From the NCBI GenBank assembly GCA_013153635.1, contig JAADDZ010000026.1, positions 56,652 through 120,651 of the forward strand: 64,000 bases of DNA, given 5' to 3'. The position numbers and the translations under genes are program-made. A model generated the notes under the pieces. It made no database searches. It saw only the letters and a list, made by a program, of their open reading frames with translations, and had not been told where the DNA came from. Shown in pieces: positions 9,691 through 48,238 of the stretch (the first letter of the stretch is position 1; the number at the start of each line of letters is the position of its first letter). This DNA is from Aquificota bacterium (GTDB lineage: Bacteria; Aquificota; Aquificia; Aquificales; Hydrogenothermaceae).

Positions 9691-11127
9691 TTGGTTAGAG
9701 TTAGATTCGCACCTAGCCCAACTGGTTATCTTCACGTTGGAAATGCTAGAACAGCTTTATTTAACTATCTATTTGCAAAACACAACAGAGGAAAGCTAAT
9801 CCTTAGAGTCGAAGACACAGACAAAGAACGTTCCAAAAAAGAGTATGAAGATATGCTTATAGAAGACCTAAAATGGCTTGGTATCCAATGGGACGAAGGT
9901 CCAGATGTTGGTGGAGAATATGCTCCATATAGGCAGTCTGAAAGATTAGATATATACAAAACATATATAGAAAAACTCTTAGAAACTGGACACGCATACT
10001 ACTGTTACTGTCTACCAGAAGAGTTAGAAAAAGAAAGACAAAAAGCTCTATCAGAAGGAAGACCCCCTAGGTACAGCGGAAAATGTAGACATCTAACCCC
10101 AGAAGAAAAAAAACGATATGAAGAAAAAGGTATAAAACCTGTAGTTAGATTCAAAGTTCCAGATGGAAGGACAATAATATTCGATGACCTTATAAGAGGT
10201 CATATAGAAATAAATGTAGATGAGTTTGGAGATTTTGTAATAGTAAGACAAGATGGAATGCCTACCTACAATTTTGTAGTGGTTGTAGATGACGCTTTAA
10301 TGAAAATATCTCATGTTATAAGAGGAGAAGACCACCTATCAAATACTCCAAAACAGATATTAATCTATGAAGCATTAGAGTTTCCAATACCAGAATTTGC
10401 CCACTTGCCAATAATATTAGGAGAAGATAGAAGTAAACTGTCTAAGAGACATGGGGCTGTATCTGTACGAGCATTTAAAGAAGAAGGGTATATGCCAGAA
10501 GCATTATTTAATTTTTTAGCCCTTCTTGGTTGGCACCCAAAAGAAGACAGAGAAATCCTATCAAAAGAAGAAATCATAAAAGAGTTCGATATTAAAGATG
10601 TACACAAGTCTCCAGCAGTCTTTGATAGAACAAAACTAAGATGGCTAAATGGAGTGTATATAAGGGAGATAATCTCTCTAGATGAGCTTACAAGAAGAGC
10701 TGAACCCTTTTTTAAAAAGTTTGGATACATAGCAGATTTTGAGTATTACAAAAAAGTTCTTAATGCTATAAGAGACAGTATAGAGACGCTAAGTGAGATA
10801 AAAGATAGGGCGCGTCCATTTTTCGTTCAGGAGTTCGAATTTGATGAAAAAACAAAAGAAGAGTTAAAAAGTGAAACCGCTTATAAAGTTATCCAAAAGT
10901 TTTATGAAAAAATAAAAGACAGAGACAGCCTAACAAGCCAAGATTTTAAAAAAATTATGAAAGAGATACAAAAAGAACTAGGAGTCAAAGGAAAACAGTT
11001 ATACCACCCGATAAGACTAGCATTAACAGGAGAACACTCTGGTGTAGGGTTAGACCTTCTGATTGATGTAATCGGTGTAGAGGAAGTAAAAGCCCGTATC
11101 AAAAGGGTTTTAGAGCTATTTGAATAA
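9691..11127 (+). CDS. gltX: Glutamyl-tRNA synthetase
   Basis: A class I synthetase that charges tRNA-Glu (and perhaps tRNA-Gln if the organism uses transamidation). The HIGH-type motif is APSPTGYLHVGNARTALFNY at residues 7-26 and the KMSKS-type motif is SKLSKRHG near residue 250. The 478-residue length matches bacterial GluRS. The TTG start has a strong AGGAGG upstream. It ends the plus-strand run that begins with murD. Confidence 0.96.
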   Translation: MVRVRFAPSPTGYLHVGNARTALFNYLFAKHNRGKLILRVEDTDKERSKKEYEDMLIEDLKWLGIQWDEGPDVGGEYAPYRQSERLDIYKTYIEKLLETGHAYYCYCLPEELEKERQKALSEGRPPRYSGKCRHLTPEEKKRYEEKGIKPVVRFKVPDGRTIIFDDLIRGHIEINVDEFGDFVIVRQDGMPTYNFVVVVDDALMKISHVIRGEDHLSNTPKQILIYEALEFPIPEFAHLPIILGEDRSKLSKRHGAVSVRAFKEEGYMPEALFNFLALLGWHPKEDREILSKEEIIKEFDIKDVHKSPAVFDRTKLRWLNGVYIREIISLDELTRRAEPFFKKFGYIADFEYYKKVLNAIRDSIETLSEIKDRARPFFVQEFEFDEKTKEELKSETAYKVIQKFYEKIKDRDSLTSQDFKKIMKEIQKELGVKGKQLYHPIRLALTGEHSGVGLDLLIDVIGVEEVKARIKRVLELFE

Positions 11128-11174
11128 AAAGTTATGAACTTTTGGAAGTGGTTATTAACTTTTTGTAAAAGTTA

Positions 11175-11201
11175 TTGACAATAAATTTTAGTTATTATAA
11201 A
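11175..11201 (+). promoter_or_regulatory. Putative sigma-70-type promoter of the C-rich RNA
   Basis: A perfect TTGACA at 11175-11180 is followed by TATAAA at 11196-11201, a 15-base spacer. TAAATT at 11198 would give 17 bases. It lies after the gltX stop and points to the C-rich segment. A start near 11208-11210 is predicted. The short spacer with the better -10 box is a weakness. Confidence 0.5.
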
Positions 11202-11208
11202 TTAATTA

Positions 11209-11266
11209 GAACCTCCCCCCTTCCCTCCCCCAAATCCTGGGGCCTCGCAATGAGGCCTCTTTTTTA
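11209..11266 (+). ncRNA. Candidate C-rich small RNA between gltX and pyrE
   Basis: This spacer stands out sharply: 33 of 50 bases in 11211-11260 are G or C, in a genome that looks about one third GC. From a promoter-like TTGACA/TATAAA, a transcript of about 58 bases would hold CCTCCCCCCTTCCCTCCCCC and then a strong terminator hairpin ending in a run of T. In AT-rich thermophiles, GC-rich spacers are a known sign of structured RNA. The single-stranded C/U tract resembles an anti-Shine-Dalgarno sequence, so it could bind G-rich ribosome-binding sites. An alternative is simply the 3' end of the gltX transcript. No known RNA family was recognised. Confidence 0.5.
11241..11266 (+). terminator. Rho-independent terminator after gltX / candidate RNA
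   Basis: The stem GGCCTC (11241-11246) pairs with GAGGCC (11252-11257) across the 5-base loop GCAAT and is followed by CTCTTTTTT. A competing CCCC/GGGG pairing (about 11227-11231 with 11239-11242) uses part of the same stem. The T run is on the plus strand only, so it does not terminate pyrE. Confidence 0.85.
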
Positions 11267-11278
11267 GAAATTTTAATC

Positions 11279-11836
11279 TTAGTAGTTATTATTATAATTA
11301 AGAAGTTGTGAAACTCTAAAAACTGGGTAAAATTCTAGACCTTCTTTTTTTATATTTTCAGCTCCCCCTTCTTCTCTATCAACAAGAGCGATTATACCTA
11401 AAACCTCTAAGCCACTTTCCTTTGCCACTTTTGCGGCTTTTAAACAAGAAGAAGCTGTAGTGACAACATCTTCTACAATAAAAACCTTCTCTCCTTTTTT
11501 AATATTTCCTTCTATCTGTTTTCCTGTTCCATGTTTTTTAGGTTCTTTTCTTACAATAAATGGCTTTATAGGTTTATTCCTTATGTAAGATACTATAGCA
11601 GTAGCATAAGATATTGGGTCTGCTCCTAAAGTAAGACCTCCTATAGCATCTGGATTCTTTTCTTTCACCATATCAAAAATGACATTACCAATGATATATC
11701 CCCCTTGTGAATCTAATGTAACTGTTCTAAGGTCAAGATAATATGTGCTAAGCTTTCCAGAGGAAAGCTTGAATATAGGTTTATCTGAAACCTTTAAAGC
11801 TCTCTCTAAAATAAGCTTTTTTAACTCTTCTTTCAT
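11279..11836 (-). CDS. pyrE: Orotate phosphoribosyltransferase
   Basis: PyrE joins orotate and PRPP to form orotidine 5'-phosphate in pyrimidine synthesis. The PRPP-binding motif is VFIVEDVVTTASS, with FKLSSGKLSTYYLDLRT near the N-terminus and PFIVRKEPKKHGTGKQIEG as the flexible catalytic loop. The product is 185 residues. Two adjacent ATG codons follow AGGAGA; I use the inner one for better spacing. An upstream in-frame start would extend the protein by ten non-conserved residues. It is divergent from asd and convergent with gltX. Confidence 0.93.
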   Translation of the reverse strand: MKEELKKLILERALKVSDKPIFKLSSGKLSTYYLDLRTVTLDSQGGYIIGNVIFDMVKEKNPDAIGGLTLGADPISYATAIVSYIRNKPIKPFIVRKEPKKHGTGKQIEGNIKKGEKVFIVEDVVTTASSCLKAAKVAKESGLEVLGIIALVDREEGGAENIKKEGLEFYPVFRVSQLLNYNNNY

Positions 11837-11866
11837 CATTCTCTCCTTTTGTATTGATAAAACCAA

Positions 11867-11872
11867 TATAAT
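11867..11872 (+). promoter_or_regulatory. Putative -10 box of asd
   Basis: A perfect TATAAT sits 29 bases before the asd ATG. It abuts the oppositely oriented -10 box of pyrE. No convincing -35 is seen. Confidence 0.45.
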
Positions 11873-11878
11873 ATTATA
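11873..11878 (-). promoter_or_regulatory. Putative -10 box of pyrE
   Basis: On the minus strand this reads TATAAT, placing a start near 11866 and a leader of about 30 bases that contains AGGAGA. It lies next to the asd -10 box, so the two promoters would compete for polymerase. Confidence 0.45.
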
Positions 11879-11901
11879 AAAGCTACTAACGGAGGATTTT
11901 A

Positions 11902-12915
11902 ATGAAGCTTTATAATGTGGCTATTTTAGGAGCTACTGGAGCTGTAGGACAAACGATGCTTAAAGTACTAGAAGAAAGAAATTTTCCTATAGGTAAACTA
12001 AAGCTCCTTGCCTCTAAGCAGTCAGCAGGAAAAGAAATAAACTTCAAAGGAGATACCTATACAGTAGAACCAGTAAGTAGTGAATCCTTTGAAGGTATAG
12101 ATATAGCCCTATTTTCAGCAGGCTCTACAAGGAGCAAAACATGGGCTCCAATAGCTGTAGAGAAAGGAGCGGTAGTTATAGATAACAGTTCAGCTTTTAG
12201 AATGGAGCCTCAAGTCCCTCTAGTAGTACCAGAAGTAAATCCTGAAGATGTTAAAAACCATCAAGGAATAATAGCAAACCCTAACTGTTCTACTATTCAG
12301 ATGGTAGTAGCTTTGTATCCAATACACAGAAAAAAAACGATTAAAAGAGTAATAGTATCTACATATCAAGCTGTATCTGGAGCTGGAGCAAAAGCTATAG
12401 AAGACTTACAAAAAGAAGTGAAGGCTAGATTTGAGGGAGAACACTACACCCCACAAGCTCTTCCAGCTAGTATAGCTTTTAATGTCATTCCAAGGATAGA
12501 TATATTTTTAGAGAATGACTACACAAAAGAAGAGATGAAAATGCTAAATGAAACACGAAAAATCATGCATGCTCCAGACATAAAGGTTTCTGCTACTTGT
12601 GTTCGAGTCCCTGTATTTATAGGGCATAGTGAAAGTGTAACAATAGAAACCCAAGAACCTATAACCCCTCAAGAAGCAAAACAGATTTTGTCTTCTGCTC
12701 CGGGAATAATTATGGAAGATGACCCTAAAAATAATGTATATCCTATGCCTATAGATGTGGAAGGCAAAGATGATGTTTTTGTAGGTAGAATCCGAAAAGA
12801 TTTGGCTTTTGATAATGGGTTGTCTATGTGGGTTGTGGCAGATAACCTAAGAAAAGGTGCGGCTACAAACGCTGTACAAATAGCACAGCTACTCGTTGAT
12901 TATGGTCTTGTTTAA
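11902..12915 (+). CDS. asd: Aspartate-semialdehyde dehydrogenase
   Basis: Asd reduces aspartyl-phosphate to the semialdehyde for lysine/DAP, threonine and methionine synthesis. The NADP-binding N-terminus is VAILGATGAVGQ. The catalytic cysteine lies in NPNCSTIQ (about residue 130), with VVSTYQAVSGAG following. The active-site histidine region is FIGHSESV. Its 337 residues are typical. It has GGAGG before the ATG and is followed 12 bases later by a cyclophilin gene. Confidence 0.96.
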   Translation: MKLYNVAILGATGAVGQTMLKVLEERNFPIGKLKLLASKQSAGKEINFKGDTYTVEPVSSESFEGIDIALFSAGSTRSKTWAPIAVEKGAVVIDNSSAFRMEPQVPLVVPEVNPEDVKNHQGIIANPNCSTIQMVVALYPIHRKKTIKRVIVSTYQAVSGAGAKAIEDLQKEVKARFEGEHYTPQALPASIAFNVIPRIDIFLENDYTKEEMKMLNETRKIMHAPDIKVSATCVRVPVFIGHSESVTIETQEPITPQEAKQILSSAPGIIMEDDPKNNVYPMPIDVEGKDDVFVGRIRKDLAFDNGLSMWVVADNLRKGAATNAVQIAQLLVDYGLV

Positions 12916-12927
12916 GGAGGTAAGAAT

Positions 12928-13509
12928 ATGAAGTTTTTAATTGGTATGTTTGCAGTTTTGTTTATGTTTTTCAATACTTTTGCAGAAGAAAAAAACCCAG
13001 TAGTTTTATTAAAAACTAATTTAGGTGAGATTTATATAGAGCTGTATCCAAAAAAAGCTCCAAAAACTGTAAAACAATTCTTAAGATATGTCAAAGAAGG
13101 GTTTTACGATGGTTTAATATTTCACAGAGTCATACCTAACTTTGTAATCCAAGCTGGAGGATTTGATAAAAACTTTAAATACCGGGAACCAAAATATCCT
13201 CCTATACCAAATGAAGCTGATAATGGTCTGAAAAACCTTAGAGGAACTGTAGCTATGGCAAGGTCTTCAGACCCTCACAGTGCAAATGCCCAATTTTTTA
13301 TAAACCTAAAGGACAACCATTTCTTGGATTTTAAAAGCAAAACACCTCAAGGTTGGGGATATACAGTCTTTGGAAAAGTAATAAAAGGAATGGAAGTAGT
13401 AGACAAAATAGCCAAGATACCTACAAAAACAGCTATAACTCCTTATGGTTATATGAGAGACGTACCTACCAAGCCAGTGGTTATAGAAAAAGCTGTAATT
13501 TTAAAATGA
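12928..13509 (+). CDS. Periplasmic peptidyl-prolyl cis-trans isomerase, cyclophilin type
   Basis: A cyclophilin of 193 residues that speeds proline isomerisation during folding. An N-terminal signal peptide is visible (MKFLIGMFAVLFMFFNTFAEE), so it acts in the periplasm. The cyclophilin core follows with FYDGLIFHRVIPNFVIQAG, RGTVAMARSSDPHSANAQFF and GYTVFGKVIKGMEVVDKI. It has a strong AAGGAGG site and follows asd closely. It overlaps the endonuclease V gene by 4 bases (ATGA). Confidence 0.93.
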   Translation: MKFLIGMFAVLFMFFNTFAEEKNPVVLLKTNLGEIYIELYPKKAPKTVKQFLRYVKEGFYDGLIFHRVIPNFVIQAGGFDKNFKYREPKYPPIPNEADNGLKNLRGTVAMARSSDPHSANAQFFINLKDNHFLDFKSKTPQGWGYTVFGKVIKGMEVVDKIAKIPTKTAITPYGYMRDVPTKPVVIEKAVILK

Positions 13510-36444: not shown

Positions 36445-36468
36445 AATTACCCCCTCTTTAATATTTGA

Positions 36469-43796: not shown

Positions 43797-43812
43797 AATA
43801 ACTAACCCCCTT

Positions 43813-48199: not shown

Positions 48200-48238
48200 A
48201 TATTTACCCCCTTTTGTGTTTGTTAAATATTTCGTACC

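Follow-up and report, generated by a model that had tools for sequence, protein, structure and literature searches.

The window analysed here, a stretch of 64,000 nt from a genome of the family Hydrogenothermaceae (Aquificota), contains a short C-rich locus located between gltX, encoding glutamyl-tRNA synthetase, and a convergently oriented pyrE-like gene (Table 1). The locus is composed of a promoter, a C tract and an intrinsic terminator, and is referred to below as the type I small RNA (sRNA) locus. Its hairpin and T run form the sole terminator-like site found in the region 10000-13000. The inverted repeat preceding the promoter was seen solely in the genus of the window and in one neighbour; its assignment as a genome-wide operator was rejected (the BLAST neighbours were coding or unrelated).

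Table 1. Features of the type I locus in the window, and the type II locus in the same genome.
Feature	Position	Strand	Remarks
gltX (glutamyl-tRNA synthetase), upstream neighbour	9691-11127	+	Same strand as the sRNA
Inverted repeat AAAAGTTATGAACTTTT	11127-11143	+	Precedes the promoter; may be an operator or UP element
-35 hexamer TTGACA	11175-11180	+	TTGA invariant among aligned loci; promoter located as expected in the 20 scored type I loci
-10 hexamer TAAATT	11198-11203	+	17-nt spacer; relatives mostly TATATT
Predicted type I sRNA	11210-11265	+	About 55 nt; 5' end predicted from promoter spacing, 3' end from the terminator
C tract, RNA CCUCCCCCCUUCCCUCCCCC / DNA CCTCCCCCCTTCCCTCCCCC	11212-11231	+	20 nt; proposed seed; conserved; unpaired in the fold
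Terminator hairpin GGGGCCTC-GCAAT-GAGGCCTC	11239-11259	+	8 bp; short linker between tract and hairpin
U run of the intrinsic terminator	11260-11265	+	6 T; candidate Hfq-binding 3' end
pyrE-like phosphoribosyltransferase gene, convergent neighbour	11279-11866	-	
Type II sRNA	C15:13003-13063	-	R2 match; behind palindrome ATGATGAATATCATT

The first-pass annotation of this DNA had proposed an RNA of about 58 bases behind a TTGACA/TATAAA promoter. The small RNA and its -35 hexamer were retained, but the length is nearer 55 nt, and TATAAA (11196-11201), with a spacer of 15 nt, was replaced by TAAATT at 17 nt. The reported GC content of 66% was reproduced by counting over 11210-11259, and the strong hairpin followed by a T run was found as described. 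The minimum free energy fold of the predicted RNA consists of the terminator hairpin alone and leaves the C tract free, in agreement with the exposure originally claimed for it (unpaired with a mean probability of 0.99 at 37 °C, and of 0.98 when folded at 70 °C). Within the window alone, promoter-like sites are common and the fold has a z-score of -1.6, so the evidence from this single site, though suggestive, is not significant; it is the comparative evidence that places the sRNA locus beyond chance. Because gltX and the sRNA promoter are not separated by a terminator, transcripts running on from gltX may be a further source of the RNA. On the minus strand, a terminator for pyrE was looked for in the segment 11205-11279 and none was found; read-through from pyrE would therefore yield a G-rich RNA antisense to the sRNA.

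A DNA search of 41 genomes (that of the window and 40 relatives) recovered the type I element in many members of the family. The covariance model built for it (R1) matches the window at 11209-11265 with 74.3 bits. Full-length copies scoring above 60 bits were found in 22 of the 41 genomes, one further copy scored 52 bits and two were cut by contig ends, giving a total of approximately 25 Hydrogenothermaceae genomes with E values down to 1e-19. Such a covariance search across relatives had been set beforehand as a test of the sRNA, and both the C tract and the hairpin proved to be conserved. The R1 search found no type I copy in three genomes of one genus (g9), which was counted against the sRNA explanation. 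In a scan of 84,980 species, only Hydrogenothermaceae/Aquificota loci exceeded 60 bits (carriers were Persephonella, Hydrogenothermus and metagenome-assembled genomes) and all others scored at most 28.1 bits. Pattern matches outside Aquificota in these species had low scores and were judged to be due to chance.

The aligned type I loci have in common the TTGA of the -35 hexamer, a -10 box, the C tract, a GCAA loop and the U run. Their tract takes the form [AC]CCUCCCCC(C)U(U)CCCUCCCCCAA, to which the window copy conforms, and its C content is maintained while the exact run lengths vary. Each has its own sigma-70-type promoter, with 6-9 nt from the end of the -10 box to the tract, and the window copy shares this arrangement. 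The promoter match at the expected place averaged 10.35 out of 12 for the 20 type I loci that were scored, compared with 7.6 for shuffled sequences (maximum shuffle mean 8.25). In the terminator stem all 102 of 102 cells were paired (100%, vs 85% in shuffles), and seven of the eight stem pairs had changed on both sides (vs 2.9 in shuffles), a value matched by none of 500 shuffles. This covarying stem, together with the GCAA loop and the U run, is also found in the window copy. The loop itself (11247-11250 in the window; columns 41-44 of alignment A2) is invariant in 13 of 13 aligned type I RNAs, whereas the stem varies.

Type I occupies at least four gene neighbourhoods: gltX/pyrE, gltX/glnA, M16 peptidase and cbb3 FixO/rhomboid. 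In the genus of the window it lies 3' of gltX, with either pyrE or glnA on the other side, and gltX is kept as a neighbour solely within this genus. A second genus carries it adjoining a gene for an M16 peptidase, and several others, including Persephonella, between cbb3 oxidase genes (FixO) and a rhomboid gene. Since the neighbours differ between genera while promoter, tract and terminator are kept, the element should be a trans-acting RNA gene rather than a cis element of one particular gene. The idea of a C-rich sRNA with its own promoter and terminator is borne out by the relatives, in which all of these parts persist despite the changing surroundings. Judged from sequence comparison, the locus is almost certainly an independent sRNA gene. 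In genera g6 and g8 a C-rich tract and hairpin lie directly 3' of a ccoG-like 4Fe-4S gene, with no obvious promoter of their own. Two genera have a C-rich tract with a terminator immediately 3' of an ORF whose product ends in D(D/E)DVPF, a tail resembling that of single-strand-binding proteins (ssb), and this may represent a 3'UTR-derived C-rich RNA.

The R1 model also revealed a paralogue, type II (GCATCCCCCTCCCTCCCCCTCCATTTCCTGCGGGT...ACCCGCCTTTTT), which in most members is located between gatC/recA and topA; topA as its neighbour is known from relatives. Its own covariance model (R2) has matches in approximately 31 genomes of the family and in that of the window. Upstream of type II there is a palindrome, ATGATRAWWATCATT. 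This 15-mer occurs 44 times in the 41 genomes, compared with six occurrences of the reversed control; 20 of the 44 sites are type II loci and two more belong to the same locus broken by contig ends. Other sites precede genes encoding peroxiredoxin (in the genome of the window), superoxide reductase and a Rieske protein, all three of which were checked against Pfam; further ones, read from sequence, precede genes for POR/OGOR subunits, a NifU-like gene, a ribonucleotide reductase-like gene and nadA. The genome of the window has genes for three Fur-family proteins. Compared with the E. coli Fur consensus, individual sites agree at only 12-15 of 19 positions and often fall short of significance when taken singly, and the Fur link of type II rests on its membership in the ATGATRAWWATCATT regulon, not on consensus matches. 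The ATGATRAWWATCATT sites probably constitute a Fur-family iron or redox regulon of Hydrogenothermaceae. Upstream regions of type I were likewise scored for a Fur box, and their matches were no better than those of shuffled sequences; Fur control of type I was not supported.

At E ≤ 0.001, R1 matched 67 of the 136 genomes of the phylum, including two further families with weaker but clear matches. The run order CCCCCUCCCUCC is largely kept in these relatives; a terminator comes after it, and many of them have a visible promoter. They are called a family by their architecture, since 12-20 C-rich bases cannot separate common descent from partial convergence. One of the families (f5, probably Desulfurobacteriaceae) has a promoter overlapped by a Fur-like box, AATGAGAACTATTATT, which agrees with the Fur consensus in 13-15 of 19 positions (shuffle p 0.065 or less).

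In Aquifex aeolicus the R1 matches are located at 989758-989814 (+) and 1168993-1169050 (-). Both fall, on the same strands, inside published transcripts: n68 (989704-989840, +), earlier called Aae-65, and n75 (1168974-1169071, -) (Lechner et al. 2014, PMC4227106). As a check of the coordinates, the tmRNA and SRP RNA of A. aeolicus were found at the positions given in PMC4227106. Aae-65 was first reported in an RNomics paper cited by Lechner et al. 2014 (PMC4227106). According to PMC4227106, n68 and n75 were both detected by dRNA-seq, and n75 also by Northern hybridization, on both strands. The main text of that paper assigns neither a family nor a C-rich motif or function to n68 and n75, and leaves the polarity of n75 open. 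These published data demonstrate transcription of close architectural relatives in Aquifex, not of the window copy itself. The Aquifex RNAs and the window sRNA share a core of C runs and the terminator architecture, but in n68 and n75 the leader before the tract is longer and the loop is different.

A search of Rfam 15 with gathering and permissive thresholds yielded no credible match. The initial statement that the RNA belongs to no described family therefore holds for Rfam 15, but two of its Aquifex counterparts had already been detected experimentally. FsrA of Bacillus subtilis requires the proteins FbpA, FbpB and FbpC. It is Fur-regulated, and its C-rich motif binds the Shine-Dalgarno (SD) sequence (binding mode as stated in PMC9410917). 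It belongs to a different phylum, and the window sRNA has no Rfam match. In the AT-rich genomes of staphylococci, the C-rich single-stranded regions of IsrR also target the SD, and its Fur boxes are comparable with that of type II (PMC9410917). However, IsrR is 174 nt long and contains three stem-loops as well as three short C-rich regions, and of the two RNAs described here only type II has a Fur-like box at its promoter. The window sRNA shows no homology to IsrR or FsrA by Rfam. In alpha-r14/NfeR1 an ultraconserved anti-SD motif, CCUCCUCCC, serves as a redundant seed within three hairpins (PMC10746234), whereas the window sRNA has one linear 5' tract of 20 nt and no hairpin before the terminator; repeated CCUCCUCCC in tandem hairpins, as in alpha-r14/cuckoo-type RNAs, was not found. 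The Xanthomonas sRNA sX13 (PMC3771888) and Helicobacter HPnc5490 similarly pair a C-rich UCCCCCU-type seed with G-rich motifs in target mRNAs, but there the seed lies in C-rich loops of a structured RNA, sX13 is Hfq-independent, and sequence and taxa are unrelated to the window sRNA.

The ability of the tract to pair with translation starts was assessed by hybridization with 55 genes of the window. The mean energy was -6.2 kcal/mol for the 22 nt that precede the start and -3.4 for positions inside genes. The 16S anti-SD gave -6.5 in the same test, so the tract performs no better and the result speaks for an ability, not for specificity. In these genomes the dominant SD is GGAGGU, whose complement, ACCUCC, occurs at the 5' end of the sRNA. 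In eight genomes, the exact complement GGGGGAGG was no more common than the reversed control, and its sites lie mostly inside genes and almost never at a start codon. In the genome of the window, GGGGGT before ATG was not enriched (34 vs 33 controls); in a sister species G5 runs before ATG numbered 32 vs 14 controls, with no consistent signal overall. As these searches for extended complementarity at start codons were negative, the target step is one that we infer. Unusual GGGGGU SDs were noted on the minus strand of the window, at 48207-48211 (cheZ-like gene), 43806-43810 (MCP gene) and 36450-36454 (gcvH). That of cheZ was rejected as a conserved target: it is kept in three species of the window's genus only, and other genera have GGAGG or GGAGGG. 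Hfq genes are present in 130 of the 136 genomes of the phylum; Hydrogenothermaceae usually have two Hfq matches per genome and family f5 three.

We propose that the locus encodes an sRNA that acts in trans, probably with assistance from Hfq, and uses its single-stranded C tract to cover purine-rich ribosome-binding sites, a reading to which we assign a probability of roughly 0.7. RNA polymerase would start at a strong promoter of the housekeeping type and stop at the sRNA's own intrinsic terminator; the product would consist of hardly anything beyond a stable, U-tailed 3' hairpin and the exposed 20-nt C tract in front of it. The tract would most likely pair with G-rich or SD sequences at the translation starts of several mRNAs and block initiation, probably with the help of Hfq. 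The very high C content would keep this pairing stable at high growth temperature, and paralogues would be expressed from different promoters. Such SD blocking is suggested by the exposed C-rich seed and terminator, the occurrence of several copies, the Hfq genes and the GGAGGU SD, and it fits the precedents of IsrR, FsrA, NfeR1/alpha-r14 and sX13. The anti-SD function of the tract is a predicted one.

Instead, the locus might merely form the 3' UTR, including the terminator, of whichever gene lies upstream (gltX, or elsewhere cbb3 genes), with the C tract pausing transcription or protecting the mRNA end. This would suit the position of gltX on the same strand with no intervening terminator, as well as the C-rich hairpins that follow ccoG in g6/g8 and the end of the ssb-like ORF elsewhere. 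However, the 20 scored loci have nearly the same promoter spacing, different genera have different upstream genes and the Aquifex homologues appear as discrete ncRNAs, which makes this explanation unlikely. Rho prefers C-rich unstructured RNA, and the tract could act as a decoy binding Rho or another C-binding protein, not mRNAs. Its very high C content, lack of structure and variable run lengths are compatible with such a role, but a full Rho site would normally be longer than 20 nt, and composition-based binding would not need the run order CCCCC-U-CCC-U-CC, which is largely kept across the phylum; we regard this as improbable too.

The gonococcal pilE G-quadruplex (G4) is accompanied by a small RNA promoter. 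The complement GGGGGAGGGAAGGGGGGAGG might by analogy act as a DNA or antisense element, given the adjacent promoter, the G-rich antisense RNA that pyrE read-through would give and the sense and antisense transcripts of Aquifex n75. This is very unlikely, since the motif is not conserved: four runs of three are absent from the window copy and from all 22 type II loci, and occur in only five of 20 type I loci; moreover, a G4 requires neither a covarying terminator nor a conserved promoter. A chance C-rich stretch ahead of an ordinary terminator, for which the weak promoter and fold statistics of the window could be cited, is refuted by the occurrence in some 25 family genomes, the E values and the stem covariation.

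These RNAs form a new sRNA family, absent from Rfam 15 and reaching across Aquificota, most likely with a mode of action of a known kind. As one paralogue (type II) belongs to an iron/redox (Fur-like) regulon, the family probably adjusts translation connected with iron and respiration. It is possible, although we consider it rather doubtful, that such multi-copy minimal anti-SD-like RNAs are a main post-transcriptional regulator of the phylum, their copies answering different signals (iron/redox via the Fur-like box; a cbb3-/gltX-linked copy) with one C-rich seed adapted to hot pairing. To our knowledge, Hfq and base-pairing sRNAs are poorly characterized in deep-branching thermophiles. A structure of Aquifex Hfq exists (PMC5379935), and the family supplies natural candidate ligands with a defined seed. 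The orphan Aquifex RNAs n68/Aae-65 and n75, earlier not recognized as relatives, are joined to a phylum-wide family, whose interest lies in the connection that it draws, among deep-branching thermophiles, between these RNAs, Hfq and an iron/redox regulon. The suggested iron/redox-linked circuit would follow a logic like that of IsrR and FsrA with an unrelated and minimal RNA, and it raises the question of how sRNA-mRNA pairing stays stable at 65-85 °C.
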